A DNA stretch of 64,000 nt, from contig NZ_CAKLBU010000019.1 of the NCBI RefSeq assembly GCF_920984735.1, forward strand, positions 1 to 64,000, written 5' to 3'. The notes beneath the pieces are model-generated. The model saw only the letters and a list, made by a program, of their open reading frames with translations. It was not told where the DNA came from and searched no databases. Numbering within the stretch: position 1 is the stretch's first letter; every line of letters starts with the position of its first letter. This document shows, in pieces, positions 36,451-62,429 of this stretch. Origin of the DNA: Pedobacter sp. Leaf250. GTDB taxonomy: Bacteria > Bacteroidota > Bacteroidia > Sphingobacteriales > Sphingobacteriaceae. Position numbers and translations under genes: made by a program.

Positions 36451-36453
36451 GCT

Positions 36454-39981: not shown

Positions 39982-41007
39982 TTACTTATAATAATTTGCA
40001 AAATCCTTGTGTTCAATTTTCGCTAAAGATTCCTGAGAAAGTGATTTGAAATAGGCATAAGTAAGTTTAAGTCCTTCGACCCGGTTTACCTTCGGCTCCC
40101 AGCCTAAAATTGATTTAGCCTTTTCAATATTTGGTCTGCGTTGTTTTGGATCATCTTGCGGCAGATTGTGATAAACAATTTTTTGAGTGGTTCCGGTCAG
40201 TTTAATGATCTCTTCACAAAATTGCTTGATCGTAATTTCATCAGGATTACCAATGTTCATTGGCTGACTATAATCGCTATGCAGCAATCTGTAAATCCCT
40301 TCTATTAGATCATCTACATAACAAAATGAGCGTGTTTGTGAACCGTCTCCGAAGATGGTTAAATCTTCGCCTCGTAATGCCTGCCCAATAAATGCAGGTA
40401 AAACCCTGCCATCATTCAGGCGCATACGCGGGCCATAAGTGTTAAAAATTCTTATAATCCGGATTTCAACACCATGAAAAGTATGATATGCCATGGTAAT
40501 GGCTTCTTGAAAACGCTTGGCTTCATCATAAACACCTCTTGGCCCCACAGGATTTACATTTCCCCAATATTCCTCAGGTTGCGGATTCACACTTGGATCG
40601 CCATAAACTTCAGAAGTTGAAGCAATCAGCATTCTGGCATTTTTCACTCTTGCCAATCCTAAAAGATTATGAGTGCCTAAAGAACCAACTTTTAAAGTTT
40701 GGATAGGAATTTTCAGATAATCTATCGGACTTGCCGGCGAAGCGAAATGCAGGATATAGTCCAGATTTCCAGGGATATGAACAAACTTGGAAACATCATG
40801 GTGATAAAACTCAAAGTTTTCGCGGGCGAATAGATGCTCAATGTTGGCAAGGTCGCCAGTGATGAGATTGTCCATTCCAATAACATGATAACCTTCATGA
40901 ATAAAACGATCGCATAAATGGGAACCTAAAAAGCCAGCTGCTCCTGTAATTAATATTCTTTTCGGCTGTATGGATGGTGATTTAGCGCTGCTGCTTTCGT
41001 TTGTCAT
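39982..41007 (-). CDS. UDP-glucuronate decarboxylase (UDP-xylose synthase)
   Basis: 341 aa extended SDR. NAD loop GAAGFLGSH (about 23-31), [21 protein letters not shown] (about 88-108, the UXS signature), STSEVYGDP (about 130-138), YDEAKRFQE (about 160-168, catalytic Tyr/Lys) and [11 protein letters not shown] (about 191-201). It decarboxylates UDP-glucuronate to UDP-xylose through a 4-keto intermediate. Overlap of one base with the UDP-glucose dehydrogenase gene makes a two-step UDP-Glc to UDP-Xyl unit. Confidence 0.9.
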
Positions 41008-42365
41008 TATGCTAATTCATTAATTTGAGCTTGCAATTGATTCGTGTTTTTTGGCCTGGTAATCAATTGTCTACCAATGCTATTGTAATAATAACCAAGG
41101 TCGATCATTTTTTCAAGATCAAATAAGTTTCTGCCATCGAATATGACTCTTTCGTTCATCAAAGAAGCAATTTTGTTAAAGTCTGGATTTCTGAATAACG
41201 ACCATTCGGTAGCAATCAATAAGGCGTCGGCAGCTTGAAGGGCTTCATATTGGTCAGGTGCATACACAATTCGGTCCCCAAAAATTGCTTTCACATTTTC
41301 GATGCTTTCCGGATCAAATACACTCACCGAAGCTCCTTTTTCTAAAAGTGCTTCAATGATGTATAATGCTGGTGCTTCACGTATATCATCAGTTTCTGGT
41401 TTAAAAGCCAGGCCCCATAATGCGAAATGTTTACCTGTAATCTCGCCGTTGTAGTACTTTAAAACTTTATTTACCATTACTGTCTTTTGGCGTTCATTAA
41501 CGTTCATCACTGATTTTAGTATTTCAAAATCATATACATATTCATCAGCTGCTTTTACCAAGGCTTGAACATCTTTTGGGAAGCATGATCCACCATAACC
41601 AATACCTGGAAACAAAAATCTTTTTCCTATTCTCTCATCAGAACCGATACCTCTACGTACCGAATCAACATCAGCACCAACAAGTTCACAAAGGTTTGCA
41701 ATCTCGTTCATAAAAGTAATTTTGGTTGCCAAAAATGAGTTGGCTGCATATTTTGTTAATTCTGATGATTTCTCATCCATAAACAAAATTGGATTTCCCT
41801 GACGAACGTATGGGGCATACAATTCCGTCATTATTTTTTTTGCCTTTTCGCTTCTAGTCCCTAATACTACACGATCTGGTTTCATAAAATCTTCAACCGC
41901 AACACCTTCCCTTAAAAATTCAGGGTTTGAAACCACATCTACTTCAATATTAGTGTGTTTTTCAAAAATTGCTTTTACCTTGTCAGCAGTACCTACAGGT
42001 ACGGTGGATTTATTTACAATTACTTTATAGGATGTAATTAAGTTTGCAACATCTTTAGCAGCTCCTAAAATATAGGAAAGGTCGGCAGCCCCATCACCTC
42101 CTGGAGGCGTTGGCAAAGCCATGAAGATAATTTGAGCACTTTCAATTGCAGAAGCAAGATCAGTAGTAAATGTTAGACGTTGTTGTGAAATATTGCGGTT
42201 AAATAGCAGTTCTAAGCCAGGCTCGTATATGGGTAAAAAACCATTTTGCATTTTTTCTATCTTGGCAACATTGATATCTACGCATATTACGTCGTTACCC
42301 GTTTCTGCTAAGCATGTGCCCGTTACCAAGCCTACATAGCCAGTCCCAATTACTGCTATTTTCAT
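41007..42365 (-). CDS. ugd: UDP-glucose 6-dehydrogenase
   Basis: 452 aa. NAD loop [17 protein letters not shown] (about 7-23), NKSTVPVGT (about 118-126), NPEFLREG (about 147-154) and the catalytic Cys in [15 protein letters not shown] (about 252-266). It oxidises UDP-glucose to UDP-glucuronate with two NAD. It probably feeds the decarboxylase downstream and may also supply glucuronic acid to the polymer. Transcribed from EPS element D, which has a perfect palindrome at the predicted start. Confidence 0.94.
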
Positions 42366-42527: not shown

Positions 42528-43373
42528 TTATTGGATTGATTCTCTAATTTTACATATTGTACCTGCAATCAGCGCAAAGCCATAATTGGCAACCGCCTTT
42601 GGAAAATTTTGTTCTTTTTTAATGTGAAACATATCTTTTCGCCAAGCATTATAATTGGTACTATTTAGCTGATCATATATAACGGAGATATTTTGACCAA
42701 GAGCAACTGTGGTATGCCACATGCCATTGGGTACAAAAATGGTTTCTCCAGGTTCAAGCGTAACTTCGATGGATTGAGCTGATTTAAACTTAGGATGTTT
42801 ACCCAAATCTGGATTTAAAATGTTTACCGGCGATAGAAAGTTTGCATAACCTTTTCTACCAGCATATAAATACTCATCCTGATCCCCAGGGAAAAGAATA
42901 AACTTCTTTTCGCCATATAGTTGGGTTATCCAGGCATTGGTGTGGTAAAAATCTTTATGTAAAGAGTATTGATTTCCTTGGCCTCCAAAAAATAAATTCA
43001 CGTTTTTTCCGAATTTACCAAAAGGGAATATCTTAGAATCAAACCAGTTGGGTGTTGCAAAATTCATGTGGATGGGTTTAATCATAGCCATAAATTCGGG
43101 TAAATCGTGTGGAATTTCAAAGCTGATTGGATAGGGAGCTGGATTTGCAGGAGTACTATTTTTGGTCAACTCAAGAATCTGGTTGATGCTGTAATTCTTT
43201 CCCTCAAAATCCATTACATAATCACCAAATTTATCACTAAAAAAATCTGGACCAAATTGGTGGCTTGGCCATGCTTTTGAGGCATTCTTAAACACCAAAG
43301 GTTTTCTTTTTTTTAAGTATTGGTTAATAAATTCCTCGTAAGATATTTGATCTCTTTTTTCTATTTGTGGCAT
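42528..43373 (-). CDS. cupin-like/JmjC-fold Fe(II) 2-oxoglutarate-type oxygenase
   Basis: 281 aa, cupin_8 family. The metal facial triad is readable as HKD (in YSLHKDFYHTN, about residues 136-140) and the distal His in NGMWHTTVALG (about 227-237); a conserved Lys in YGEKKFILF (about 151-159) could bind 2-oxoglutarate. Such enzymes hydroxylate proteins, amino acids or natural-product intermediates. It lies 13 bp after the PPTase gene of the NRPS/PKS unit, so tailoring hydroxylation of the assembled product is the likely role, by inference. Confidence 0.8.
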   Translation of the reverse strand: MPQIEKRDQISYEEFINQYLKKRKPLVFKNASKAWPSHQFGPDFFSDKFGDYVMDFEGKNYSINQILELTKNSTPANPAPYPISFEIPHDLPEFMAMIKPIHMNFATPNWFDSKIFPFGKFGKNVNLFFGGQGNQYSLHKDFYHTNAWITQLYGEKKFILFPGDQDEYLYAGRKGYANFLSPVNILNPDLGKHPKFKSAQSIEVTLEPGETIFVPNGMWHTTVALGQNISVIYDQLNSTNYNAWRKDMFHIKKEQNFPKAVANYGFALIAGTICKIRESIQ

Positions 43374-43386
43374 GATTGGCTAGGTT

Positions 43387-44097
43387 TTAAGCGTAATTCC
43401 AATATAAAATAGCAGATAATTTGGTTCTCACGAGAGAAATGATATAATCATGGTCAGTTTTTATTGTTGATAAATGATAATTCTGATTTGCTCTTGAAAG
43501 GAAAGGAGGTAAGCAATCGAGTTCTTTTAAATTGTTTAGCAAACCTTCACCGGTTGCTTTCAATATTCCTTCTTTACGCGTCCATAGGCCGTAAAAAGCT
43601 ATTCTTTTATTGATTGAACCGCGTATTAACTTTTCTTCCTGTTTATTAAAACATTCGGTAATAAGGGGTTCAAAATCAAAATTTTTGTTGATCAGTTCTA
43701 CGTCGATGCCAATAGATTCTTTGCTTAGCGCTATTACAATGCGATCGCTGCTATGACTGATGTTAAATTCGATGCCTTGAATGAACGGTTTTTTATTATG
43801 TCCTTCGCTAAAAAGCAATTCATTGGCTGGTGTACCAATACCCAAAGCAATGATTTTTCTTAACGCATAGCGTGTAGATAGATAACGTTCGCGGTCATGC
43901 TGCATCATAAAGCGTTTTGATCTATTAATTTCATTCTCTGATAAAATTTGATGTATTTTATCTTTAATGGCTTCAAAATAGTGGCTAACCTTAATTTTGA
44001 TTACATGGTCTGATTGTAAATCAAGTTTCTGATCATGGTCAAAATCGTCCCAATTGATCTCGGTTTCAATAAGTAACTCATTGCTAGGCGTTTGCAT
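43387..44097 (-). CDS. Sfp-type 4'-phosphopantetheinyl transferase
   Basis: 236 aa from ATG 44097. An upstream in-frame ATG at 44208 would add 37 residues lying wholly inside the NRPS gene and unlike the family, so I reject it. Motifs: FNISHSSDRIVIAL (P2-like), IGIDVELI (GxDxE, Mg-binding) and FYGLWTRKEGILKATGEGL (WxxKEA). It moves phosphopantetheine from CoA to carrier-protein serines, here those of the adjacent megasynthases. The start overlaps the NRPS gene end by 14 bases. Confidence 0.9.
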   Translation of the reverse strand: MQTPSNELLIETEINWDDFDHDQKLDLQSDHVIKIKVSHYFEAIKDKIHQILSENEINRSKRFMMQHDRERYLSTRYALRKIIALGIGTPANELLFSEGHNKKPFIQGIEFNISHSSDRIVIALSKESIGIDVELINKNFDFEPLITECFNKQEEKLIRGSINKRIAFYGLWTRKEGILKATGEGLLNNLKELDCLPPFLSRANQNYHLSTIKTDHDYIISLVRTKLSAILYWNYA

Positions 44098-47000
44098 TTT
44101 TGTTGAGCTGGTTCTGTAAAATTTTAGCAAAAGCAGTGTGATGCGGTGCTGAAATAAAAGTTTTATGATCGCCTGGTATTTCGCACACTTCCACTCCTTT
44201 ATTTGCAAAGCGATCCCAACCCAAATAAGTTAAGTCATCCAGAAAATAAAGACGTTCAGATACTCTGAACAATGTGATCTTCAGGTTTGCTGCAGTGAGT
44301 AAATATCGTTGCAAGGCTTCATCATATTTGATATATATTCCCTTCTCCCGATCTGAAAACAATGCCCAATCTAAATCCAATTTTGTTTCACTATTTTTAA
44401 ACAGTCTTTTTTTAGTAATATCAAGTTGATATTTTAAAGTGTTGATTGGCGTTTTCGTAAATGATGCCGCAATAAACGGGATTTTTTTGAATTGTCTTTT
44501 TATAAAATATCCTAAGTTATTCTGACTTTCTTCTTTCGAAACATTTCTGCCAGTATCGGTATCCACTACGCCAAGTAAGTTAATTTCCTTACCTAATACT
44601 TTAAGTTGTTTCGCCATTTCAAAGGCAATAAAACCGCCCAATGAGTAGCCTACAATGTTGTAAGGCCCGTTTGGATTGCTTAGCAATAATTCTTCAATAT
44701 AACGGGCCGCTATTTGTTCAATGCTATCTGGAACTTGTTCATCATGATCAAGGCCTATTGCCTGCACACCATATATTGGCTGGTCTTCGTTCAGTGAGGC
44801 TATAATTGATTTAAACAACAATACATTTAATCCGCTTCCATGAATTAGATAAACCGGGTTTTTGTCTCCTCCAGTACGGATGGGAATAATGGTCTGCGAT
44901 TTTTTATCATTTACCTCGAATGAAAGCTGTTGGGCCAATGTTTCAATGGTAGCATATTTAAGCAATGTTGTAAGAGGCATACGAAAGCCTATTTTTTTTT
45001 CTAGAGCAAGCATCATGCTTACAGCTATTAACGAGTTTCCTCCTAGCTCAAAAAAGTCATCTGTAATATTAATATCTTCTTTCACTAAACATGTTGACCA
45101 AATCTCTTTTAATAACTCTTCAGCAGGCGTAAGTGTACCATTTGCCTTGATGCTTTTTTCGGTAGGATTGAAAATAGGCTTTGGAAGTAATGCCCGATCA
45201 ACTTTCCCATTTGAGGTGATTGGAAATGCCTCCAGTACAACAATGTAATGAGGTAGCATATAAGAGGGCAATAGCTTGGCAAGATCGTCTTTTAAGAATT
45301 TCAAATAATTTTTACTGATACTTATCTGATCCTTGGCAACATGATGTTGCTGGCTCACATCCAGTAAGTTTGGGTCATCTTTAAATTTCTGGTTCAGCAC
45401 CAGATAGGCTACCAATACCTCACTTTTATTGATATCATCTCTTTGTAATACCAATGTTTGGGCAATCTCTTCCCTATTCAACAATTGGTTTTCGATTTCA
45501 CCAGGCTCTATCCTGTGGCCCCTTACCTTTATTTGGTGGTCTATTCTTCCCAAACATAGAATTTCTCCGCTTGGCAACATTTTACCCAAATCACCGGTTT
45601 TGTATAAGATTAAATTTGAATGTGGATCTGTGCGCACAAACTTATCATCGGTAAGCTTTTCCTGGTTAATATATCCTAAACTTACGCCATCGCCACCGAT
45701 ACAAATTTCACCCACTTCACCTTTGTATACAGGGTTCAGGGATTGATCCATTATGTGTACCTGGGTATTGTGAACGGGGTTTCCAATTGTAATCCATTCA
45801 TCTGAGGGCAAAATCTCTTTTCCACTGGAATAAATGGTGGTTTCAGTTGGCCCATACATGTTCCACAATCGGGCCCCGGTGCTTAATATCGCTTTGGCCA
45901 AATGAATATCCAATTGCTCACCCCCAACTATAACTTTCAATTGATTGGTCTTGAGGCCAACATCCAAAATCATAGACAGGGTGGAGGGAGTGCCCTGAAG
46001 GGCTGTAATATTTGCAAGCGAAATTAAATCGTTAATTAATCTTCCATCTTTAGCAGTGATTGAGTCAGCAATAACTACTTCAGCACCACAAATTAGTGGC
46101 AGGAAAAGCTCAAGTGCAGCAATATCGAATGAAATTGTGGTTATCGCTAACAATCGATCGATATCGGTTAAACCTGGCATTTGCTGCGTACTTAAAAGGA
46201 GATTGGCTAAATTACCATGACTGATTTTTACGCCTTTAGGAAAACCAGTTGATCCTGATGTGTATAATAAATAGGCAGGATCCTTAAGGTCAATTGCAAT
46301 ATTTTTCCATTTATTAATGTTTAAGTGGATGGAGGCAAAGGCTTCATTAATTGATATGTTTTTGATTCCAGGATCTATTTGGATGGTGGAACTTGAAACC
46401 ATGTTCGAAGCACCAGAATCTTTCAACATATAATTAATCCGCTCTACAGGCAAATTGGTGTCAATGGGTAAATAAGCAGCTCCTGTTTTTAAAACAGCGA
46501 TCATTGTAACCAGCATTTTTGCTGATCTCTCTACTGCAATCGCGATGGTCTGGCCTTTACCAATCCCTTTATTCTGAAGATAAAATGCCAATGCATCAGC
46601 CTGCTGATGTAATGTTTGGTAATCTAGTCGCTCACCATTAAAAGATAATGCATTGCGATTGGAATACGGCTTTGCACATTCGTTAAATAGATCGACAAAA
46701 CTATTGGTGTTAACGAAAGAATCTCCCTCTACAATTGCCTTTACGGCGCCTGCACTTACCGCATCGACAATTTTAATAGCGGGGTTTTCAAGAAAAATAT
46801 CGATCAAACTTTTAAAGTCGCTGATCATTTCATTAATAGTTGCCGCTTTAAAAAGTTGGGTATTGTAATTCCATTCCAAAGTTAGCCCATCAGCAGTATC
46901 TGTTGCATTTACAAAAAGCTCAAAAGTTTCACTTTGCCTTACATTTGATATAATTTGGTGGTCTACGCCATAGAACGAAACGTCGCTATCCATACCCATA

Positions 47001-48139
47001 TCAATATTAAATACAATGGGAACCAGTGGTACTCTGGAAATATCTCTTTTAGGATTTAATTTGTTAAGCAGCTGACCAAAACTGTATTGTTGATGGTCAT
47101 AAACATCCATTAAATGACTGCGTTTTGCATTTAGATAATCAGTTAATGATAAATTTGCATCAATAGTACTTCTAATGGGAAGTATGTTTACACAATGGCC
47201 AACCAAATTATAAAAGGCAGTTACGGCTTGTTCTGCTGAGGGTAATCCAATTACCAGTTCATTTTGACGTGTTTTTTTAAAAATTAACACTTCAAAAATG
47301 GATAACATGGTGGTTACGAGACTACAGCCAATTTTTGCTCCACCTTTTCGTAAATTTTCGACACTGTTTTTGGGCAATAACTGATCTATACGCTTAGATT
47401 GATACGTACGCTGATTTGCTCGTGGAAAGTCTGTGGGTAGATCGATTTGAGGAGCCGCCTGCGCAAATTCCTTTAACCAAAAATTTTCAGTAGATCTAAA
47501 TTCAGCGCTATTAAGATAATTATCTTGTGCAATTGCAAACTGACTAATTTGAAAAGCTTCAGGAAGTACTAATGAATTGCCCAGGAGATGCGAGCTGTAC
47601 AGTTTACTGAGTTCTTCCAAAATGATGCCTAATGACCAGCCATCGCAGATAATGTGGTGCAAAATTAACGTAATCAACACTTGATCATCCTCCAGTTGAT
47701 GAATAAAAACCCGAAACAAAGGTGCCTCATTTAAATCAAAAGGATGGGCCATTTGGGTATTTAAAAATGAATCAATGTGCTGTTTTTTAATATCATGAGA
47801 CAATTCCTGGAGATCTTCTGCTATAATCTGGTATGGAATAAAATCATAAATGATCAACTTCTCACCATTACCACTAATGTGGCTCCGCAAGGCTTCATGT
47901 CGTTGAACCAATTGGTCAAAAGCTTTTTTGAAATAATCAAGCTCGAAGTGCCCCTTAATCGCTATTGACACCGACTCGTTATAAGCGATATTTGCCTCAT
48001 CGCCACCCATCAAACAGGATAGATAGATTTCTTGTTGCGCTTTATTAATGGATACAAGTTTATCAATATTTCTATCCTGCTCAAACGGATTGAAGTCAAT
48101 TGAAATTAAATCGGTTTCTAAATTTAATGTATTCATCAT
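44084..48139 (-). CDS. non-ribosomal peptide synthetase, C-A-PCP-TE
   Basis: 1351 aa. Condensation domain (about 25-450) with HHIICDG (about 160-166); adenylation domain (about 480-960) with LLYTSGSTGFPKG, NMYGPTETTIY and RIDHQIKVRGHRIEPGEIE; PCP (about 1000-1070) with DDFFELGGNSLIAV; type I thioesterase (about 1090-1340) with VYLIHGSGLN and the active Ser in GYSLGG (about 1166). The specificity code I derive by hand from alignment to GrsA is about D-I-L-Q-I-G-M-I-Y, which resembles glycine codes. It follows the hybrid synthase by 3 bp, so it should take over its acyl chain, add one residue and release it. Confidence 0.93.
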   Translation of the reverse strand: MMNTLNLETDLISIDFNPFEQDRNIDKLVSINKAQQEIYLSCLMGGDEANIAYNESVSIAIKGHFELDYFKKAFDQLVQRHEALRSHISGNGEKLIIYDFIPYQIIAEDLQELSHDIKKQHIDSFLNTQMAHPFDLNEAPLFRVFIHQLEDDQVLITLILHHIICDGWSLGIILEELSKLYSSHLLGNSLVLPEAFQISQFAIAQDNYLNSAEFRSTENFWLKEFAQAAPQIDLPTDFPRANQRTYQSKRIDQLLPKNSVENLRKGGAKIGCSLVTTMLSIFEVLIFKKTRQNELVIGLPSAEQAVTAFYNLVGHCVNILPIRSTIDANLSLTDYLNAKRSHLMDVYDHQQYSFGQLLNKLNPKRDISRVPLVPIVFNIDMGMDSDVSFYGVDHQIISNVRQSETFELFVNATDTADGLTLEWNYNTQLFKAATINEMISDFKSLIDIFLENPAIKIVDAVSAGAVKAIVEGDSFVNTNSFVDLFNECAKPYSNRNALSFNGERLDYQTLHQQADALAFYLQNKGIGKGQTIAIAVERSAKMLVTMIAVLKTGAAYLPIDTNLPVERINYMLKDSGASNMVSSSTIQIDPGIKNISINEAFASIHLNINKWKNIAIDLKDPAYLLYTSGSTGFPKGVKISHGNLANLLLSTQQMPGLTDIDRLLAITTISFDIAALELFLPLICGAEVVIADSITAKDGRLINDLISLANITALQGTPSTLSMILDVGLKTNQLKVIVGGEQLDIHLAKAILSTGARLWNMYGPTETTIYSSGKEILPSDEWITIGNPVHNTQVHIMDQSLNPVYKGEVGEICIGGDGVSLGYINQEKLTDDKFVRTDPHSNLILYKTGDLGKMLPSGEILCLGRIDHQIKVRGHRIEPGEIENQLLNREEIAQTLVLQRDDINKSEVLVAYLVLNQKFKDDPNLLDVSQQHHVAKDQISISKNYLKFLKDDLAKLLPSYMLPHYIVVLEAFPITSNGKVDRALLPKPIFNPTEKSIKANGTLTPAEELLKEIWSTCLVKEDINITDDFFELGGNSLIAVSMMLALEKKIGFRMPLTTLLKYATIETLAQQLSFEVNDKKSQTIIPIRTGGDKNPVYLIHGSGLNVLLFKSIIASLNEDQPIYGVQAIGLDHDEQVPDSIEQIAARYIEELLLSNPNGPYNIVGYSLGGFIAFEMAKQLKVLGKEINLLGVVDTDTGRNVSKEESQNNLGYFIKRQFKKIPFIAASFTKTPINTLKYQLDITKKRLFKNSETKLDLDWALFSDREKGIYIKYDEALQRYLLTAANLKITLFRVSERLYFLDDLTYLGWDRFANKGVEVCEIPGDHKTFISAPHHTAFAKILQNQLNKNANA

Positions 48140-48142
48140 CGA

Positions 48143-51100
48143 TTAATTGGTTTGCACCTGCAAGAACATTTGATCATTTTCAGGATCCTCAATAAACCAG
48201 GCCGGATTTCCAAACCGATCCTTTCCTAACCTTGCTCCCGAAATAGGCGGTTGATTGTTGTCGATTACAACGGCATGAGGATTATAATTCAATAATTTTT
48301 GCGATTGATTATGCGTATTCGGGAAAAAGCCTTTGGCAATCATTTCATCAATTGAAGTAGTAAAGGCGATGATCATTTTGTCGATATCAGGGTAACTCGT
48401 AGCCTCAGTTATAAAGCATGGGAAGCCATCCAGAATATGAATTCCTTTCTCTCTCATCAGCACAAACAGAAGCTCACTGTAAATCATTTCCGGTTCCATT
48501 TTAAGTTTCCATAGCGAGCCAAAGTTTACCACTTGCATGGGTAATTTTCTAAAGGCAATTTCACGATTTAATGATTTAGAGATGAAATTCCCTTTGTCGT
48601 TAAGTTTCTGCTGCAAGGAAGGGCCTTGTTCTTTCATGTAGATTAAGGATGCTTTGGCTGATGCTAGCGCAAGCGGATGACGAACGAATGTTCCGGCAAA
48701 GTAGGTGATACCAACTTCAGGAATAGAGTCATCCCCATAATTCCATGTTCCGCCATCAAGTGCATCCATAAAGGTTCTTGTGCCAGCAATAACACCAATT
48801 GGTATACCTGCTCCAACTACTTTTCCATAAGCGGCAATATCTGCTTTTACGCCTAACAAGGCTTGAGCACCCCCTGGATGCATTCGAAAACCTGTAATCA
48901 CTTCATCAAAAATTAAGGCAACGCCATTTTCGGATGTGATTTGACGAAGTTGTTTCAAAAAAGAAATGGGTACGAATTCTGGCCTTCTGCTTTGAATGGG
49001 CTCTACCAATACGCCGGCAATTTCACTTGCCCGATCTTTAATAATGGCCAGGGTTTCATCTGTTCCGTAATCAAGCACTAGTATGTTTTCTACTGCCTCT
49101 GGCATAATGCCAGCAGCAGCAGGAAAAGATTTCATTTTTTTGGTTCCACGAACCAGAACTTCATCGAAAATGCCATGGTAAGATCCAGTGAAAGCAACAA
49201 TTAAAGAACGTGCCGTTACCGTCCTAGCCAAACGGATACAGCCCATTACGGCCTCAGATCCGGTACTACATAAACCTGTTCTGTCAAAATCAGTGAAATC
49301 GCAAACTAAACGACTCACCTCTGCCGCTAATTCATGTTGCGGACCTACCTCAAACCCTTTTTCAATTTGATAGTGAAGTGCTTCTTTGATAAAATCAGGC
49401 TGATAACCAAGCATATTAGAGCCAAAACCATTTAAAGCGTCTATATATTGGTTGCCATCTAAATCCCATAGTTTACTACCGTCCGATTTTTTTACTATTA
49501 TAGGGTATATTAAATCTTTTATTGCAGGTTTAAAGCCATTTACCACACGTGGATCGGCCATAAACCCTCTGCTCTCTGCTGTTGAAGCCTTACTTTTAGC
49601 AGTTTTCTTATTGTATCTTTTTATTAAGTCTGATAAAAATTGTTGTTGTTTTTCACTGAGTGCTGTTTTGGTAAATTCGATTTTTGGTGTGGCACCAAAT
49701 GGCTTGCGTACTTCGTTTTGTTCCTCTTTAGATAGGGCTGCTAGCGGTGTAAGGTCTTTTACTGGATTTGTCTGCGTTGTATTTTGCACAATGTTTACTG
49801 GTGCAGCAATTGGATTGTTCTGCGTATTTGTGATCAGCTGAATCTGTTTAGCAATTAATTCCAATTGTGCTGAAAGTAAAGCCAAAGCAATGTTTTCCTG
49901 CGCTGGAACTACTGGTTGTGATGAAATAGGAGATGCTTGTATTACATCCGTCACTACAGGATCAGTTACGATTAAAGGCGCTAAATAATTAACTAAAGCA
50001 TCGATTGATGAGCATTCTTCATTTAATTGTCTAAATGTAATAGGCACTTTAAATTCCTTTTTAAGTGATGTTGCTACCTGTGTAAGCAATAAAGAATCAA
50101 ATCCAATTTCTAAAAAGTTTTTGCATAAGTCTATCCCATCAAACTCTATTCCTGATGAAAGCTCGAGTACAGTTTTAACTTGATTAATAAGAACGTTTCT
50201 TTTCATTTGAGCTTGATTATTAGGGGTATTAGCTTTTGTTATTGATTTGGATGTATTGTTATTGGCTATAGCTGGCTGTGCAGGTTCTACCCAAAATTTC
50301 TTTTTATTGAAAGCGTAAGTGGGCAATTCGACAAAATTTCTTTGTTGATCGGAATAGTATTGTTCCCAGTTGATTGGAAAGCCAGCACAAACTAAGGCAC
50401 CTACCGAATGAATTATTTTTTGTGTTTCCACTGCGCTACTCATCATGCTGGATATTACTATGCCTTTGTGTGCATGTTCCAGTAAAATTTGTTTGGTGAA
50501 TACACTTAAAGCCTCCCCTGGTCCAACTTCTAAAAATAGAGGGTCGTGGTGGTTAATGATGTATGTTATTGCAGTCGAAAATTTTACAGTATTTCTTAAA
50601 TGATTTGTCCAATAATTTACATCAAGCGCTTGCTCATTGGTAAGCAATTTGCCAGTTACCGAAGAAACTATAGGTACTTTTGGTTTCTGAAGGTTGATGG
50701 ACTCAACCAGTTTTTTAAAATCAGGAAGAACCGGATCCATCATTACCGAGTGAAATGCATGGCTTGTTGCTAATAATTTACTAGGCATGCCCAAATTGTC
50801 CAGTTTCTTTTTGAAAATAGATAATGATTGATCGTTCCCAGAAATTACGAATAAGTTTTTGGTGTTTTCTGCCGCAATAGATAAATCTTCAGGCAATAGA
50901 TCAGCAATCTCCGTATTTTTTATACGAACTGACAACATGCCACCGCCTGGAAGTTTACTTATTAGTTTACCCCTTAAAGCTACTAATATAAGCGCATCGT
51001 TTAATGAAAACACTCCAGCCAGGTGTGCAGCAACATATTCTCCAACACTATGGCCACAAAATATATCTGCCTTGCATCCCCAACTCATCCACAGTTTTGC

Positions 51101-54100
51101 TAAAGCATATTCTGTACAAAAAATAGCTGGTTGTGCATACTGTGTATCATTTAAAGTCTTCGGTTCATTGTTTGCTGAAAAAATAATCGATTTGATATCT
51201 AAATGAATGATCTCTTTTAATAACTCCGCACATTCATCAATCGCATCCTTGTAAACAGCTTCCTGCTTATATAGGCTGGCACCCATATTTAAATATTGTG
51301 CACCCTGACCTGGAAATAAAAACACTAACTTATTCGCTTTTTGATGTAATTGGTGCGTGATTGCGAATGATTGCTTTTGATTTGCCATTTCCTCTGCTAA
51401 ATTCGACATGGTGTTTACAATGCCAAATGCCCTGTAATTAAAATCCGCTTGAGATTGGTGTAGCGAATAGGCTAAATCTTCTGCCAATACGGCTGGATGC
51501 AGCTGGATAAAATCTTCAAGCTTGCTACCATAATCTTTTAGGCTTTCCATTGATTTTGCCGACCACGAAATTAATTCATGCGCTCTTTTTGTAACAGGTG
51601 TTTGCATGGTATTTTCATATCCTTCCAACACCACATGAACATTTGTGCCGCCCACGCCAAATGAGCTTACACCAGCTAAACGTGTTTCTGCATTCCAATT
51701 TTGCAAATGGTTGTTTACATAAAACGGGCTGTTATCAAAATCAATGTGTTTATTTGGTGTATTGAAACCAATTGAGGGCACCAATTTCTTATGGTGCAGT
51801 GATAAGCAGGTTTTGATGAAACTTGCTACGCCTGCCGCTTCTGTGAGGTGGCCAAAATTACTTTTGATAGATCCAATGGCACAGTATTGTTTAATGTTTT
51901 GCTGACCAAAAGCCTGTACAAGTCCTTCAAATTCTATAGGATCGCCAATAGGAGTTCCTGTACCATGTGTTTCTACGTATGAAATATCGCTCGATTCAAC
52001 ATCTGCATCTGCAATGGCTGCCAAAACTGCATCGGCCTGCCCTTCAGTGCTTGGTGCTGTGAAACTGGCCTTATCATTTCCATCATTGCTTACGCCCACA
52101 CCTTTAATCACGGCATATATTTGGTCGCCATCTGCTTTGGCATCTTCCAGTCTTTTTAACAGTACCACGCCGGCGCCATCGCTGAAAACCGTGCCGGTCG
52201 AATCATCATCAAATGGGCGGCAATGTCCATCTTTGCTTAAAATACTTCCCTCCTGATAGATGTGGCCACTATTTGCACAAGAATTTATGCTTGCTCCGCC
52301 TGCTATTGCTACATCACATTGCATTGCTCTTAAACTGTTAACCGCTTCCAAGATTGCAAGCAGTGAGGTAGAGCAGGCCGAATTAATATTAATGGCAGGT
52401 CCTTTAAGGTTTAAATGGTAAGCCGTTCTAGAAGCTATGTAATCCTTATCATTAACCGTGGTTACCTGAAGTTTACCCATGGTTTCGATTTTATCAGGAT
52501 GTGCCAAAACATTATTTTCATAATATAAATTAGGTCCGCAGCCTGCAAAAACGCCAGTTTTATGATCTGCTTTGGATGGGAGGTGCCCTGTTTTTTCGAG
52601 CACTTCGTATGCGATTTCCAAAAATATTCTTTGCTGTGGATCCATCAGTTCGGCTAACTTCTTATTAATGCCGAAAAAATCAGGATCAAAAAGCATGGTA
52701 TCTTTTATTACGCCGCGAGCCTTAATATATAAAAGATCATTTTTAATCTGATCAGGTATATGCTCATCCAATTCCTCATCTGTAAAGAAAGTAGTGGTTT
52801 CCTCGCCTTTGCATAGCAGTTGCCATAAGGCCGAAATGGTTTCAGCACCCGGAAATCTACCCGCCATTCCAATCACTGCAATATCTCTATCGCCTGTTTG
52901 ATGTTGATGATTTTTTTGGCGAACAGATTCCGATGATTTATTTAAATATTTTAAAACGCCCGCTATGGTGGGGTACTGATAAAGTTTTGTAATGGGCAAT
53001 ATAAATTTTTGCGCTGCAAGTGCAATAATCAGCTTTTGTGATAAAAGAGAGTCGCCGCCTAAGTCGAAAAAATTATCGTTTATGCCAACACGTTTTACCG
53101 CTAAAACCTCCTTCCATATGGATGAAATCCGCTTTTCCTGGTCGTTTTTGGGTGCTACATAAGGGTTTTGTAATAAATCAGAGTAATCTGGTATAATTAG
53201 AGCTTTCTTATCTATTTTGCCATTTACAGTAAGTGGCATTTGTGATAAATTTACCCATATTCTAGGGATCATAAACTCAGGCAATGCGCTGGCTAAATAA
53301 TTTTCGGCAGCTATTTTATTGAAACCCGGTTTGCCTACTATAAAGGCAACCAATTGTTTTTCGCTGCTGCTATTGATCTTAACCACGCATTGCTTAACAT
53401 AGGGTATATCTAGTAGTACATTTTCAATCTCACCAAGCTCCACACGATAACCTCTGATTTTTACCTGGTCGTCAATTCTTCCAAGGTATTCTATGTTTCC
53501 ATCCTCCAACCATCTGCCCATATCTCCAGTTCTATAAAGACGTGTTTGGTGAATAGAAGGCGCACTTGTAAAGTTTACATCGGTTAATTTCTGATTATTT
53601 AAATAACCCTTTGCCAAATGATTACCGCCTAAGTAAATTTCTCCTTTGGAGCCAGTGGTTACTAATTCTTTTGCTTCATCTAGAATAAAAACTGTAGTTC
53701 CTTTTAAAGGTTTACCAATGGGTAACGATGGCGAGTAAATGGTGTTATTAGCATCGCATTTAAGCGCAGTTGCGGTTACAGTGCCTTCTGTTGGTCCGTA
53801 AACGTTGTAAAACGTCCCTGAGAACTGCCATTTTAAGTATAGTGATATTGGGCAAACATCCCCACCAACAATGATCCTTTTTAAATTTTTAAATTTAACT
53901 GGGTTTAAGTTTTCCAGAAAGCCTGGTGTAACATCCAGATGATTTATTTTTTGAGCGGTTACATAATTTGTAAACTTTTCAGTATCCAACAATAAATCTT
54001 CTGATAATAGTATTAAACATGCGCCTGTGCTTAATGCCAGAAATATTTGTTCAACTGAGGCATCAAAGGCAAAACTCGAAAAAAGAAGAATTCTATCTGT

Positions 54101-54652
54101 TGCTTCTACACCATAGTATTTGCCCTGTTCGGCAATAAAATTATTTACAGCGGCATGCGTAATCTCAACCCCTTTTGGTTTTCCGGTAGAACCTGAAGTA
54201 TAAATAATATACGCAGTATCTTGTCCCTGAATAGTAACAGAAGGTAAATCGGTATTTTGGATTGCAATCATTGCTGCATCGTGCTTCAAACAAATGATTG
54301 ATGCGTTTAACTCATAAGTATTTTGATGAGCAGCAATAATAAACGATGCGCTTATGTCATTCAATATATAATTTATTCGCTCTTTTGGGTAAGCAGGATC
54401 AATTGGCACATAACTGGCGCCACATTTTAACGTCGCTACAATGGCAACTATCATTTCAAAAGAACGTTCCAAGATTATTGGAACATATGAATTAGATTTT
54501 ACACCCTGTAAAATTAGATAGTTGGCAAGCTGATTTGATTGTAAATCAAGTTCCTGATAACTGATAGATTTATTATAATATGTTACAGCAATACGATCGG
54601 GATTTACATAGACTTGACTGGCGAGGAGCGCATTAAGGGTATTAGTATTCAT
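48143..54652 (-). CDS. hybrid NRPS-PKS-aminotransferase megasynthase (A-PCP-KS-AT-ACP-AMT)
   Basis: 2169 aa. Adenylation domain (about 1-480; YIIYTSGSTGKPKG, NVYGPTEGTVTAT), PCP (about 500-575; DNFFDLGGDSLLSQ), ketosynthase (about 587-1010; ACSTS, HGTGTPIGDP, NFGHLTEAAG, so Cys-His-His complete), acyltransferase (about 1108-1400; FPGQGAQY, GHSVGE), ACP (about 1490-1570; LEIGFDSLLL) and a class III PLP aminotransferase (about 1720-2125; active Lys in AAYGKVVGAG near 1944). The tail ISGARLGKDRFGNPAWFIEDPE is the usual linker to a C domain, located in the next protein. No KR, DH or ER is seen, so the beta-keto group should become a beta-amine. Hand-derived A-code is about D-A-E-D-I-G-V-V-T, resembling Gln/Glu types. 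Confidence 0.92.
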   Translation of the reverse strand: MNTNTLNALLASQVYVNPDRIAVTYYNKSISYQELDLQSNQLANYLILQGVKSNSYVPIILERSFEMIVAIVATLKCGASYVPIDPAYPKERINYILNDISASFIIAAHQNTYELNASIICLKHDAAMIAIQNTDLPSVTIQGQDTAYIIYTSGSTGKPKGVEITHAAVNNFIAEQGKYYGVEATDRILLFSSFAFDASVEQIFLALSTGACLILLSEDLLLDTEKFTNYVTAQKINHLDVTPGFLENLNPVKFKNLKRIIVGGDVCPISLYLKWQFSGTFYNVYGPTEGTVTATALKCDANNTIYSPSLPIGKPLKGTTVFILDEAKELVTTGSKGEIYLGGNHLAKGYLNNQKLTDVNFTSAPSIHQTRLYRTGDMGRWLEDGNIEYLGRIDDQVKIRGYRVELGEIENVLLDIPYVKQCVVKINSSSEKQLVAFIVGKPGFNKIAAENYLASALPEFMIPRIWVNLSQMPLTVNGKIDKKALIIPDYSDLLQNPYVAPKNDQEKRISSIWKEVLAVKRVGINDNFFDLGGDSLLSQKLIIALAAQKFILPITKLYQYPTIAGVLKYLNKSSESVRQKNHQHQTGDRDIAVIGMAGRFPGAETISALWQLLCKGEETTTFFTDEELDEHIPDQIKNDLLYIKARGVIKDTMLFDPDFFGINKKLAELMDPQQRIFLEIAYEVLEKTGHLPSKADHKTGVFAGCGPNLYYENNVLAHPDKIETMGKLQVTTVNDKDYIASRTAYHLNLKGPAININSACSTSLLAILEAVNSLRAMQCDVAIAGGASINSCANSGHIYQEGSILSKDGHCRPFDDDSTGTVFSDGAGVVLLKRLEDAKADGDQIYAVIKGVGVSNDGNDKASFTAPSTEGQADAVLAAIADADVESSDISYVETHGTGTPIGDPIEFEGLVQAFGQQNIKQYCAIGSIKSNFGHLTEAAGVASFIKTCLSLHHKKLVPSIGFNTPNKHIDFDNSPFYVNNHLQNWNAETRLAGVSSFGVGGTNVHVVLEGYENTMQTPVTKRAHELISWSAKSMESLKDYGSKLEDFIQLHPAVLAEDLAYSLHQSQADFNYRAFGIVNTMSNLAEEMANQKQSFAITHQLHQKANKLVFLFPGQGAQYLNMGASLYKQEAVYKDAIDECAELLKEIIHLDIKSIIFSANNEPKTLNDTQYAQPAIFCTEYALAKLWMSWGCKADIFCGHSVGEYVAAHLAGVFSLNDALILVALRGKLISKLPGGGMLSVRIKNTEIADLLPEDLSIAAENTKNLFVISGNDQSLSIFKKKLDNLGMPSKLLATSHAFHSVMMDPVLPDFKKLVESINLQKPKVPIVSSVTGKLLTNEQALDVNYWTNHLRNTVKFSTAITYIINHHDPLFLEVGPGEALSVFTKQILLEHAHKGIVISSMMSSAVETQKIIHSVGALVCAGFPINWEQYYSDQQRNFVELPTYAFNKKKFWVEPAQPAIANNNTSKSITKANTPNNQAQMKRNVLINQVKTVLELSSGIEFDGIDLCKNFLEIGFDSLLLTQVATSLKKEFKVPITFRQLNEECSSIDALVNYLAPLIVTDPVVTDVIQASPISSQPVVPAQENIALALLSAQLELIAKQIQLITNTQNNPIAAPVNIVQNTTQTNPVKDLTPLAALSKEEQNEVRKPFGATPKIEFTKTALSEKQQQFLSDLIKRYNKKTAKSKASTAESRGFMADPRVVNGFKPAIKDLIYPIIVKKSDGSKLWDLDGNQYIDALNGFGSNMLGYQPDFIKEALHYQIEKGFEVGPQHELAAEVSRLVCDFTDFDRTGLCSTGSEAVMGCIRLARTVTARSLIVAFTGSYHGIFDEVLVRGTKKMKSFPAAAGIMPEAVENILVLDYGTDETLAIIKDRASEIAGVLVEPIQSRRPEFVPISFLKQLRQITSENGVALIFDEVITGFRMHPGGAQALLGVKADIAAYGKVVGAGIPIGVIAGTRTFMDALDGGTWNYGDDSIPEVGITYFAGTFVRHPLALASAKASLIYMKEQGPSLQQKLNDKGNFISKSLNREIAFRKLPMQVVNFGSLWKLKMEPEMIYSELLFVLMREKGIHILDGFPCFITEATSYPDIDKMIIAFTTSIDEMIAKGFFPNTHNQSQKLLNYNPHAVVIDNNQPPISGARLGKDRFGNPAWFIEDPENDQMFLQVQTN

Positions 54653-55007: not shown

Positions 55008-56174
55008 CTACTTTCTTTTTGAGCGTTCCCAAGCGGCACTTTGGTTTTTATTGATATACCTGAATAGGCCGGCGATAACTGCATAGTTCATTACACAGAA
55101 ATAATAGGGAACAAAGAAAGATTTTATTTTGATGTTTTTTTGCTCAAATAGGAGGCCGATATAGCTGCAAACATAAAAAAGAATTTGACCAAGCAATAAA
55201 ATCGTGTAAATTTTAGGATGATTGCCTGCTACAATAAAAATATTTAAAATGAAGGCAACAATTAGCATAAAGGGCGTAATTGTCCAGCGGAGTACCCGAT
55301 GAGAAATGTATTGAAAAGTAAGCAGCGGATTGCGAAAAGGGTTAGCTGCCTTTTTTAGTCTTAAAATAGATTGGATCCCTCCAGCTGCTATTCTGATCTT
55401 CCGTTTGAGTTCCTCCTTTGTATTTGCCGATGCTGTTTCTGATGCATAGGCATTTGGTTCATAGGCAATAATGTAGCCTTGTTCAGCTATTCTCATAGCG
55501 ATCATGTGGTCGTCAATAATGGTATCAGATTCTACAGGTTGGTATAACGATGCTCTGATGCTGAACAATTCTCCAGCTGCCCCAACGTTAGAATAAAGTT
55601 CGTAATCCCATGTTTTAAGTTTCGATTCGTACTTCCAATAAAAACCTTCTCCGGCCGAACTGGCATCTGCCTGTTTCTCTACCAGAATTCGCTTCTCGCC
55701 GGCAACTGCACCAACCTTTTCATTTTGATAATGTTTTACCAGTTGTTTCACCGCTTCGCGGTTCAAAAAGGTGTTTGCATCTGAAAATATTATAATTTCC
55801 CCTTCAACATAAGGCATTGCCCTTTTTATAGCGGCCATTTTTCCATTCCGATCCCCATTGTTTAAAGAAGTAATTTCTTTATAAGGAAGAATACGTTCTA
55901 ATGTGCGGTCTGTAGATCCATCGGTTATAAAAATAATTTGGAAAAGTGCTGATGGGTAATCGAGTAGAAGTGTATTTTTTATCTTCTCAACAATCAGGTC
56001 TTCCTCATTCCAGGCTGCAACCAAAAGGGTTACTTTTGGCAACTGTTTTGGTTGCATAAATACTTTTGATTTCACAAATAATCTCTTTATTCTGGTTAAG
56101 GTATATAGTACCATTCCATATCCTAAAAAAGTATAAAATACAATGGCCAATGCCATCCAAAATAAAACAATCAT
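55008..56174 (-). CDS. membrane GT2 glycosyltransferase (hyaluronan/poly-GlcNAc synthase-like)
   Basis: 388 aa. An N-terminal span (about 4-24), a GT-A domain with VTLLVAAWNEEDLI (about 48-61), FITDGSTDRT (about 84-93), FSDANTFLN (about 130-138, DXD-like), and DDHMIAMRIAEQGY (about 223-236, acceptor ED motif), then three or four C-terminal spans (about 295-380). The overall form matches processive or long-reach GT2 synthases. Preceded by another GT2 gene after 69 bp on the same strand, from which it is probably co-transcribed. Confidence 0.85.
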   Translation of the reverse strand: MIVLFWMALAIVFYTFLGYGMVLYTLTRIKRLFVKSKVFMQPKQLPKVTLLVAAWNEEDLIVEKIKNTLLLDYPSALFQIIFITDGSTDRTLERILPYKEITSLNNGDRNGKMAAIKRAMPYVEGEIIIFSDANTFLNREAVKQLVKHYQNEKVGAVAGEKRILVEKQADASSAGEGFYWKYESKLKTWDYELYSNVGAAGELFSIRASLYQPVESDTIIDDHMIAMRIAEQGYIIAYEPNAYASETASANTKEELKRKIRIAAGGIQSILRLKKAANPFRNPLLTFQYISHRVLRWTITPFMLIVAFILNIFIVAGNHPKIYTILLLGQILFYVCSYIGLLFEQKNIKIKSFFVPYYFCVMNYAVIAGLFRYINKNQSAAWERSKRK

Positions 56175-56243: not shown

Positions 56244-57146
56244 TTAAATCGACCCCCTGCTATGTTTTGGGTTGGTTAAGTGCCAAAAGATGGCTTTGCG
56301 CAAGTAAGGAATTAAATCAGTGCGCTGCTCTTTCACATATTTAAAAATTTGTTTTGGAGTAGCGATGCAAATAAAATACAGGCCAAAAAGCATGGTATTT
56401 ACTAAGGTTGTATTTCTTCTGATAAACAAAATTCTGTTACGCGTTGTAAAGTATGTTTTTAAGGCACTCTCACGCCCAACACTCATTGATTCCTTATGAA
56501 AAATATGGGTTTTTCCGGTAAACCAAATTTTCTTTCCTGCTTTCTTGAACATTTCGCACCAATCAAGTTCCTCGTAATACAAAAAATAAACTTCAGGCAT
56601 CATGCCAATTTTAACAATGTCTGCCCTTCTACACATCATTGCAGCACCATGGCAAAATGCAGTTTCATTGCTTGCTGCCGAAAATTGCCCGGTGTTTTGT
56701 GCGTATAAACCATTTGTTTTGTTTCTGCAAGTAATATAGTTCATCGGTGTGAAACCAGCGTATTGAATGGTTTCGGGCTGATCATAATACAGAATAAGGG
56801 GAGAGATGATCCCAATTTGAGAATTGGCCTCCATTTCTTTTATGAGTATATCAACCATGCCATCAATTACTTCGGTATCATTGTTGAGCATTAAAATGTA
56901 ATCGCCCTGTGCAAATTTTAAGCCTAAGTTATTCCCGCCCGCAAAGCCTAAATTAATTTCCGATCGAACGTAAATTAAATTTGGGAAACATGCTTTAAAG
57001 TCTTCGCCATGGTCATCAACACTGGCATTATCAACAATAATAACCTCCAATTTATCCAGGTTGAGATTTCGCTTAATAGATTCCAAAAAGTCTAATGTTA
57101 CTTTGGGCTGATTATAATTTACCGAGATAATGGATGTTAAACTCAT
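56244..57146 (-). CDS. GT2 glycosyltransferase, rhamnosyltransferase-like
   Basis: 300 aa. SIISVNYNQPKVTLDFLESI (about 5-24), EVIIVDNASVDD (about 34-45), GFAGGNNLGLKFAQGDYILMLNNDTEV (about 67-93), FCHGAAMMCRR (about 163-173) and YYEELDWCEMFKKAG (about 190-204). The GFAGGNN and NNDTEV signatures are those of RfbF/WbbL-type rhamnosyltransferases, so dTDP-rhamnose is a plausible donor, supplied by rfbBCDA. It starts from the divergent promoter shared with the UDP-HexNAc dehydrogenase gene. Confidence 0.84.
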   Translation of the reverse strand: MSLTSIISVNYNQPKVTLDFLESIKRNLNLDKLEVIIVDNASVDDHGEDFKACFPNLIYVRSEINLGFAGGNNLGLKFAQGDYILMLNNDTEVIDGMVDILIKEMEANSQIGIISPLILYYDQPETIQYAGFTPMNYITCRNKTNGLYAQNTGQFSAASNETAFCHGAAMMCRRADIVKIGMMPEVYFLYYEELDWCEMFKKAGKKIWFTGKTHIFHKESMSVGRESALKTYFTTRNRILFIRRNTTLVNTMLFGLYFICIATPKQIFKYVKEQRTDLIPYLRKAIFWHLTNPKHSRGSI

Positions 57147-57191: not shown

Positions 57192-57296
57192 AGGGTAGTA
57201 AATCCTTTGGGGTATTCGAATGAACGATCACGCTTTGCTATATTCATCCGACGACTAAAAAAAACATTCTATATCTTTATAGCTTATAGTAGAATT

Positions 57297-58568
57297 ATGT
57301 ACCTAGAAAAGCAAATCGTGGTGATTGGTTTAGGCTATGTTGGATTGCCTTTAGCCATTGAGTTTGCGAAAAAATATCCTGTTGTTGGTTATGATAATAA
57401 TCCTAAACGTGTTGAAGCCTTAAATGATTTATATGATGGAACCAATGAAGCCAACCTGCTTGATCTTGATTTTGTTCTTCGTTCCAAAGGGTTAAAACTT
57501 AGTGCTGACATTCAGGATATTAAGAATGCTCAAATTTACATTGTAACTGTTCCTACCCCAATTGATCAATTAAAACAGCCAAATCTCGAGCCATTACTAT
57601 CCGCAAGTAAAATGCTGTCAAAGGTTTTAAAAAAGGGTGATATTGTAATTTACGAATCAACAGTTTACCCGGGTTGTACAGAAGAAGATTGTGTTCCGGT
57701 ATTGGAACAGTTTTCAGGCTTACAATACAATGTTGATTTTTTCTGTGGATATTCTCCCGAACGCATCAATCCTGGCGATAAGGTAAATACTTTAACAAGA
57801 ATTAAAAAAGTCACCTCTGGCTCAACACCTGAAACTGCTGTTCTTATTAATAATTTGTATGCCTCCATCATCACTGCCGGAACCCATTTGGCACCCAGTA
57901 TTAAAGTTGCCGAAGCTTCAAAGGCGATAGAAAATGCACAACGTGATGTAAATATTTCTTTCGTAAATGAGCTGGCCTTGATATTTGATAAAATGGGTAT
58001 TGATACTACAGATGTTTTAGCTGCCGCTTCAACCAAGTGGAATTTTCTCAACTATAAACCTGGATTAGTGGGTGGGCACTGCATCGGTGTTGATCCTTAC
58101 TATTTGGCGCATAAATCAGAGTCTTTGGGTTATAAGCCTGAGGTTATTCTTTCAGGAAGAAGAGTGAATGATAATATGGGCATGTTTGTAGCTAATAAGG
58201 TGATTAAAATGATGGTGGCAAAAAGTGGTATGATAAATAGTATGAAGGTGCTCATTTTAGGTTTTGCATTTAAGGAAAATTGTCCTGATACCAGAAACAC
58301 CAAAGTGATTGACATCTACCGTGAACTTCGTGATTTTAATATCGATGTTGATGTGTGTGATCCTTGGGCAAACCAAAAAGCCGTTGAGCTAGAATATGGC
58401 ATTGACTTGATTGCAAAAGATAACTTCCAAAAATACCATGCAGTTATCATAGCAGTAGCCCACCAGCAGTTTTTGGATATAGATTATGTTAAATTTAAAC
58501 ATGAGGGTGCCATCATTTTTGACACTAAATCTTTTATTGCTCGGGATCTGGTTGATGCGAGACTTTAA
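57297..58568 (+). CDS. UDP-N-acetylhexosamine 6-dehydrogenase (WbpO/TviB-like)
   Basis: 423 aa from ATG 57297. A longer frame from 57207 adds 30 residues unlike the family, so I reject it. NAD loop VVIGLGYVGLPLAIEFA (about 8-24), VTVPTPID (about 86-93), YESTVYPGCTEE (about 118-129), catalytic Cys in PGLVGGHCIGVDPYYL (about 253-268) and KAIENAQRDVNI. The GGHCIGVDPYYL form points to enzymes oxidising UDP-GlcNAc or UDP-GalNAc to the uronic acids, not UDP-glucose. Possible -7 box TATCTTTA at 57272-57279. Confidence 0.9.
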   Translation: MYLEKQIVVIGLGYVGLPLAIEFAKKYPVVGYDNNPKRVEALNDLYDGTNEANLLDLDFVLRSKGLKLSADIQDIKNAQIYIVTVPTPIDQLKQPNLEPLLSASKMLSKVLKKGDIVIYESTVYPGCTEEDCVPVLEQFSGLQYNVDFFCGYSPERINPGDKVNTLTRIKKVTSGSTPETAVLINNLYASIITAGTHLAPSIKVAEASKAIENAQRDVNISFVNELALIFDKMGIDTTDVLAAASTKWNFLNYKPGLVGGHCIGVDPYYLAHKSESLGYKPEVILSGRRVNDNMGMFVANKVIKMMVAKSGMINSMKVLILGFAFKENCPDTRNTKVIDIYRELRDFNIDVDVCDPWANQKAVELEYGIDLIAKDNFQKYHAVIIAVAHQQFLDIDYVKFKHEGAIIFDTKSFIARDLVDARL

Positions 58569-58684
58569 ATATCTCTAAGGGTGGATTGGAAATAGGGATG
58601 GAAGATAAGGGGATAGAGAATAGGATGTTGATGGAGTTGTTGTTACCTAAACAAAGAAGCAACAATAAAATAATTTAAAACAAG

Positions 58685-58852
58685 ATGAATTATTTGTTGC
58701 TTGTTTTCCTTGGTTTATCCTCAATTAATATGTTTACTAATAATGACATTCTAGGCATCTCGGCCGTTGTATTGTCTAATGTTATTGTTTATTTATCTTT
58801 CAGGCGATTTAAAAGAGAAAGAAAACTCGACGATCTCAAACGAATTAATTAG
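58685..58852 (+). CDS. small membrane protein (55 aa)
   Basis: 55 codons, ATG 58685 and TAG at 58850-58852. The first segment (residues 2-16) and a second (about 23-39) are hydrophobic, and the tail is strongly charged (FKRERKLDDLKRIN). It fills most of the 411-bp gap between the dehydrogenase and the phosphatase gene. No clear promoter of its own is seen; positions 58569-58684 are otherwise empty. Function unknown. Confidence 0.5.
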   Translation: MNYLLLVFLGLSSINMFTNNDILGISAVVLSNVIVYLSFRRFKRERKLDDLKRIN

Positions 58853-58875
58853 CATAAGATGTTAGTTTGAATTTT

Positions 58876-58915
58876 TAGGGCTGTTATCAATCAACTAAAT
58901 TATTCTGTATGTTTG
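58876..58915 (+). promoter_or_regulatory. EPS promoter element F (PHP phosphatase gene)
   Basis: TAGGGCTGTTA (58876-58886), 21 bp, then TATGTTTG (58908-58915), a perfect -7 box. The spacing is one base longer than in the other elements and the core has two changes, so it counts as a variant member. Confidence 0.55.
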
Positions 58916-58979
58916 CAAATACGTTAGATAGTAGGCACAAGCAATCGAAATTATTTAGTCTTTTTAGAGATACCTTAAT

Positions 58980-62426: not shown

Positions 62427-62429
62427 AAT

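Follow-up and report, generated by a model that had tools for sequence, protein, structure and literature searches.

An NRPS-PKS-aminotransferase cassette found in exopolysaccharide loci of Pedobacter and other bacteria

Genes of the cassette and the surrounding locus

The window, a 64,000-nucleotide stretch of Pedobacter sp. Leaf250 DNA (contig NZ_CAKLBU010000019.1, positions 1 to 64,000), contains four collinear genes encoding a hybrid assembly line (NRPS1 and NRPS2), a 4'-phosphopantetheinyl transferase (PPTase) and a cupin oxygenase. This cassette is flanked by UDP-glucose 6-dehydrogenase (UGDH) and probable UDP-xylose synthase (UXS), Wzx and glycosyltransferase (GT) genes on one side, and by two GT2 genes on the other, within a locus for exopolysaccharide (EPS):

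25616..35667 (+): EPS core, with response regulator, initiating sugar transferase (26020-27093), OEP, Wzz/Wzc-like and Wzy-like proteins, GTs and acyltransferase 3
35668..37317 (-): two GT2 glycosyltransferases
37336..38691 (-): Wzx-type flippase (Pfam)
38744..39757 (-): WaaS/CpsH family glycosyltransferase
39982..41007 (-): NAD-dependent epimerase/dehydratase, probable UXS (Pfam)
41007..42365 (-): UGDH, EPS precursor (Pfam)
42528..43373 (-): Cupin_8/JmjC-type Fe(II)/2-oxoglutarate oxygenase (Pfam Cupin_8)
43387..44097 (-): Sfp/HetI-type PPTase (Pfam ACPS on the ORF 43387-44208)
44084..48139 (-): NRPS2, C(21-460)-A(476-1000)-PCP(1004-1080)-TE(1086-1351) (Pfam, motifs)
48143..54652 (-): NRPS1, A(1-490)-PCP(496-580)-KS(589-1020)-AT(1101-1400, malonyl type)-ACP(1481-1560)-class III aminotransferase(1691-2110) and a short conserved tail (Pfam, motifs)
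55008..56174 (-): GT2d, PgaC/IcaA-like membrane GT2
56244..57146 (-): GT2e, GT2 glycosyltransferase
57207..63494 (+): TviB-like UDP-HexNAc dehydrogenase, CpsB, Wza (SLBB/Poly_export) and Wzz-like protein

The open reading frames, strand, order and domains of the four-gene block had been read in an earlier note on this DNA, and all were confirmed by an ORF check, Pfam and inspection of motifs. Pfam gave A-PCP-KS-AT-ACP-Aminotran_3 for NRPS1 and C-A-PCP-TE for NRPS2. The motifs of NRPS1 are those of a malonyl-specific type I modular PKS, with an intact KS active site that includes the cysteine (ACSTS), an AT of the malonyl type (GHSVG, fitting GHSxG, and HAFH) and the ACP serine, and its aminotransferase (AMT) domain has the PLP lysine in a YGK motif (YGKVVGAG at 1942). 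Those of NRPS2 are of an NRPS with TE release, namely HHIICDG in the C domain (HHxxxDG), the carrier serine and GYSLG in the TE (GxSxG); serine motifs were present in the PCP and ACP carriers of both proteins. As the earlier note had it, a Pfam scan of the cassette proteins found no KR, DH or ER domain in the assembly line. The AMT follows KS-AT-ACP at the end of NRPS1, ahead of the C domain that opens NRPS2, and its closest solved structure is the AMT domain of MycA (6kfm/6kfr, E 3.9e-102). A genome-wide check showed this C domain to be the only one in the 4.8-Mb assembly.

The junctions, previously described as 3 to 13 bp or overlapping, measured 3 bp (NRPS1/NRPS2) and 13 bp (PPTase/cupin), with the PPTase overlapping NRPS2. 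We took the ATG at 44097, overlapping the stop of NRPS2, as the PPTase start, since the 273-aa ORF that begins with TTG is too long. On these sequence grounds we consider it almost certain that the cassette is a two-protein NRPS-PKS-AMT line with a PPTase and a cupin.

The closest solved relative of the cupin is JMJD5, and its metal site (H-x-D...H) is intact, as LHKD and WHTT align with the JMJD5 site. Its probable role is hydroxylation, either of a residue or of the product. In Dyella, Pseudoxanthomonas, Frateuria and two Variovorax plasmids, too, NRPS1 has a gene for a JmjC-like or 2OG oxygenase directly upstream, so the pairing of oxygenase and cassette is not confined to one lineage.

The locus has the components of a Wzx/Wzy EPS system, since an initiating transferase, Wzx, Wzy, Wza and a chain-length protein were all found. 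There were no transposon or repeat boundaries at the ends of the cassette block, and base composition gave no clear foreign signal (GC 0.375-0.386 for the NRPS genes against 0.34-0.37 for the neighbours). No DegT-type sugar aminotransferase gene, which could indicate a sugar-amine acceptor, was present in the window locus, and two strong ones lie on another contig. Among the scanned neighbours no MBOAT (DltB-type) transferase was matched, the only candidate acyltransferase being Acyl_transf_3 at 34576-35667, and no transferase dedicated to moving a peptide to a sugar was identified.

Adenylation codes and the predicted product

The ten-residue code of the NRPS1 A domain (A1), taken from aligned codes, is DAEGIGVVTK and has no clear match. 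We take it to be about as near to Lys-type codes as to those for Gln/Glu, and by this code the starter may be Gln, Glu or a basic residue. Consequently, the Gln/Glu-like starter that had been proposed is unsupported. The NRPS2 code (A2), DILSIGMIYK, is Gly-like, which supports the proposal of Gly as the second residue. These substrate names rest on textbook codes, for which the relatives provide an internal control: their codes include textbook-like ones for Thr (DFWSIGMVHK), Asp (DLTSIGHIGK), Pro (DVQVMAQVVK), Ser (DVWSLSLIDK) and Gly (DILSLGMIWK), as well as a Val-like one (DALALGGTFK). Their recovery argues that the aligned code columns are right. Both A-domain positions vary among family members, and about ten Pedobacter NRPS2 proteins have an apparent N-methyltransferase, an insert of about 390 aa, behind the A core. 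The cassette family, as judged from its codes, is one with a constant skeleton and exchanged amino acids.

The collinear domain order supports the scheme that had been put forward, in which a loading amino acid is extended by one malonyl unit, beta-aminated, joined to one (Gly-like) residue and released by the TE. The PPTase would arm the carriers; NRPS1 would load the amino acid, extend it once with malonyl and transaminate the beta-ketone on the ACP. Because the domain order lacks KR, DH and ER, the expected output is a gamma-substituted beta,gamma-diamino acyl chain, H2N-CHR-CH(NH2)-CH2-CO-, which NRPS2 would couple with one more, Gly-like residue before the TE hands it on. From domain order and knowledge of these families, we think such a skeleton probable.

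Distribution and EPS linkage

A first sample of Pedobacter comprised 71 same-genus genomes, of which 27 had NRPS1. Read in synteny, the cassette adjoins GT2e in all 27 and GT2d, as a copy at least 66% identical, in 26, and these two neighbours stay constant while chromosomal settings and the remaining EPS genes change among the 27. In a second Pedobacter sample GT2e lay within 25 kb of the cassette in 20/23. Taken together, 47/50 Pedobacter cassettes (27 of them by synteny) lie beside the same polysaccharide glycosyltransferase, in sampling that was non-random and favours Pedobacter, and in which the co-inheritance samples are related genomes rather than independent trials. The link with the EPS locus suspected earlier is thus real and, extending to proteobacterial EPS loci, much wider than the window could show; the place between UDP-xylose and GT genes, formerly called unusual, instead exemplifies the rule for the family.

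Loss and gain at the site were also evident. An otherwise syntenic EPS locus without the cassette runs from GT2d directly to UGDH (L128), another retains only the PPTase, having lost NRPS1 and NRPS2 (L129, genome G026), and two correspond to the locus of G062 minus the cassette (L145/L146). Protein distances of the AMT and GT2d correlated less well (rho 0.38) than those of GT2d and GT2e (0.70), and in two genomes (G060 and G063) the GTs were closest to same-site genomes, whereas the AMT was closest to other clades. This discordance between the AMT and GT phylogenies indicates that cassettes have been exchanged between EPS loci and retained there, which argues against simple joint descent. Pairs of GT2d and GT2e were also found in EPS loci without NRPS genes, at 70% identity or more in 3 genomes and at 55-59% in others.

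Some further genes recur with the cassette. TIGR04325-family methyltransferases (family F6) adjoin it in Pedobacter EPS loci and also at L205, L206, L208, L210, L212, L213 and L216, hence in Bacteroidota as well as Proteobacteria. GMC-type oxidoreductase genes occur in cassette-bearing EPS loci of more than one phylum, namely those of several Pedobacter (F40/F41), Rhizobium (L208/L212) and Pseudoxanthomonas (L153-L155). Proteins resembling the FdtA and FdtB enzymes for 3-amino-3,6-dideoxyhexose (F7, F8) were read in 14 cassette-bearing Pedobacter loci, where they might supply an amine acceptor; they are absent from the window locus.

About 26% of the sampled Sphingobacteriaceae and 41% of the sampled genomes of Dyella's family carry the cassette, mostly in EPS loci where the context was checked. 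In the latter family NRPS1 was found in 60/147 genomes, and Wza lay within 60 kb of the cassette in 40/44 tested, where independent placement would predict about 2. Homologues in EPS loci with Wza 14-30 kb away were seen in Dyella, Luteibacter, Pseudoxanthomonas, Frateuria, a Burkholderiales MAG and a Rhizobiales genome, genes in GC-rich loci being called by codon-usage scoring. An annotated record of Variovorax paradoxus (L206) has an EPS operon ordered NRPS1-NRPS2-PPTase-hydrolase-hydrolase-Wza-Wzc-sugar transferase, and the cassette lies inside annotated EPS operons of Aliiroseovarius (L207), Rhizobium (L208/L212), Loktanella (L213), Rhodobacter (L214) and Jannaschia (L216). Outside Dyella's family, the orders with EPS-locus homologues include Burkholderiales, Rhizobiales and Rhodobacterales. 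In an AMT tree, a set of 51 rows (36 EPS-linked) was split at 100/99 from 8 other AMTs, taken from bacillomycin, cyanobacterial, Xenorhabdus, Pseudoalteromonas and Agrobacterium siderophore-type clusters and all labelled as not in EPS loci. A conserved partnership of the cassette with EPS loci is therefore very probable.

The partnership is not exclusive. The earlier note had regarded conservation of the block without an EPS locus as the mark of a hitchhiker; such conservation was seen in at least 8/20 non-Pedobacter Sphingobacteriaceae, whose cassettes lacked surrounding glycan genes (genome G181 has only a Wza upstream), but not in 47/50 Pedobacter. Likewise, GT2e is absent from within 25 kb of the cassette in 16/27 genus-g61 genomes, and a Spirosoma and two Variovorax plasmid copies lie outside EPS loci. 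These copies indicate that the cassette is a self-contained unit with a preference for EPS loci. The three plasmid copies (L204, L205 and L210) are near copper-resistance genes, which might hint at a metal ligand or merely reflect plasmid gene content.

Release, fate of the product and relation to known systems

The mode of release differs between lineages. Bacteroidota cassettes have the TE in cis; the beta/gamma-proteobacterial NRPS2 is C-A-PCP-C-(A)-PCP without a TE, and behind several of these cassettes come a pair of alpha/beta hydrolases akin to TIGR03100/TIGR03101; and in alpha-proteobacteria the protein is C-PCP-TE, lacking an A domain. Where a terminal C domain has no A domain to itself, another molecule could provide the amine. 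A-PCP-TE proteins of about 880-895 aa, which have a single A domain with a Gly-like code and lack a C domain, stand alone amid EPS GT genes in four genomes (G144, G422, G425 and G067; for example L131:2713-5352 in the last), and may be single-amino-acid EPS acylation enzymes. An acceptor is likely for these proteins, because hydrolysis by the TE would only give the free amino acid back. It is mainly for these two reasons, the terminal C domain without an A domain and the A-PCP-TE proteins, that we prefer transfer to a glycan over a free product. The C-termini of TE-less proteobacterial NRPS2 proteins (Dyella, Pseudoxanthomonas, Burkholderiales, L029 and L036) end in a short basic tail behind the last carrier, such as GLLxRLFG, that resembles a docking or membrane motif.

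Relatives occupy EPS clusters in Bacteroidota as well as in alpha-, beta- and gamma-proteobacteria, which suggests modification of surface sugars or a partner molecule of the biofilm matrix. We propose that the cassette is a self-contained biosynthetic unit of EPS loci, which most likely provides an N- or O-linked peptidyl substituent for the EPS made by the Wzx/Wzy system, or for its repeat unit. The chances that a short gamma-amino-beta-amino acyl peptide is made and also attached to EPS seem to us about even, attachment being the inferred step, and simple hydrolysis would fit the cis-TE equally well.

The main rival, possible though somewhat doubtful, is that the TE hydrolyses the chain to give a free secreted molecule (an aminostatine-like dipeptide, signal, protease inhibitor or metal ligand) that works within the biofilm matrix or shares its regulation, the glycan staying unmodified. 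With a PPTase and a TE included, the cassette is complete in itself; it occurs alone in many genus-g61 genomes and on plasmids, and shows variable A-domain codes and N-methylation of a kind also usual in natural products. Vicinal diamines are good copper ligands, and copper genes neighbour the three plasmid copies that lack an EPS locus. However, a free product leaves unexplained both the repeated return of the cassette to EPS loci and the separation of EPS-linked AMTs from those of free metabolites, and no dedicated exporter or resistance gene accompanies the cassette in the window. Glycosylation of the peptide by the GTs, giving a glycosylated peptide or an oligosaccharide conjugate flipped by Wzx in place of a substituted polymer, would account for the constancy of GT2d and GT2e while the remaining EPS genes vary, but we judge it very unlikely, as the pairs in NRPS-less loci imply that these enzymes serve a polysaccharide without any peptide, and GT2d resembles polymer-type synthases. 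Passive hitchhiking of a block that landed in an EPS locus is in keeping with a self-contained unit, with gains and losses at the site and with copies elsewhere, but is very unlikely, being largely refuted by the distribution: the same EPS neighbour for 47/50 Pedobacter cassettes despite discordant phylogenies, and a repeated association in alpha-, beta- and gamma-proteobacteria.

It is customary to regard NRPS/PKS lines as sources of free metabolites and to attribute the substituents of surface polysaccharides to simple acyltransferases. Tentatively, attachment to EPS would point to a widespread, unrecognised class of surface polysaccharides bearing nonribosomal beta,gamma-diamino acyl peptides, in which the EPS-locus cassettes of Bacteroidota and alpha-, beta- and gamma-proteobacteria form a distinct lineage, swapped like serotype cassettes and varying in their amino acids, and the chelating vicinal diamine could give a metal-binding or cationic matrix. 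If this is true, the NRPS/PKS and surface-polysaccharide fields would be linked, and many orphan hybrid clusters would have to be re-labelled.

Pedobacter NRPS-PKS hybrids have been counted in surveys (PMC12181424, PMC10609062), and a tractable branch of the genus has been reported (PMC12181424). A table of 2013 lists P. heparinus C6XWU5, with the architecture of NRPS1 (A-CP-KS-AT-CP-PLP1), as an uncharacterised assembly line predicted to be 'Nrp-Mal-Gly-Pk'; the entry gives the domain layout without product or genomic context (PMC3870968). Our literature search found no paper tying an AMT-PKS-NRPS cassette to EPS.

Two systems of surface polymers offer partial parallels. DltA-type D-alanylation is alike in idea, in that an A domain and a carrier supply an aminoacyl group for a surface polymer, but the cassette has its TE in cis, a peptidyl/polyketide chain in place of D-Ala and no DltB-type transferase among the Pfam-scanned neighbours, on which ground DltABCD-like aminoacylation was rejected. 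In XrtA/PEP-CTERM EPS loci, hydrolases 1 and 2 (TIGR03100/TIGR03101) are related to the alpha/beta hydrolase pair behind the proteobacterial EPS-linked cassettes, although the proteobacterial hydrolase scores well under the curated cut-offs and the window has no such hydrolases.

The nearest biochemical precedent is the AMT of mycosubtilin MycA, which, as described in PMC3870968, takes Gln as the amine donor and aminates a beta-ketothioester held on an ACP. MycA and iturin-type AMTs share with the cassette the order KS-AT/ACP-AMT followed by a C domain, and a class III PLP aminotransferase of the GSAM type. Unlike them, the cassette loads an amino acid via A-PCP rather than a fatty acid, has an assembly line of only two proteins, forms no macrolactam and lies in an EPS locus; the amino-acid-type loading and single NRPS module exclude an iturin/mycosubtilin or microcystin-type lipopeptide pathway. 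The cassette AMTs are also separate from BamA and other lipopeptide and siderophore AMTs in the tree (100/99 support). The partnership with EPS loci appears to be new, whereas the parts themselves are of known kinds.
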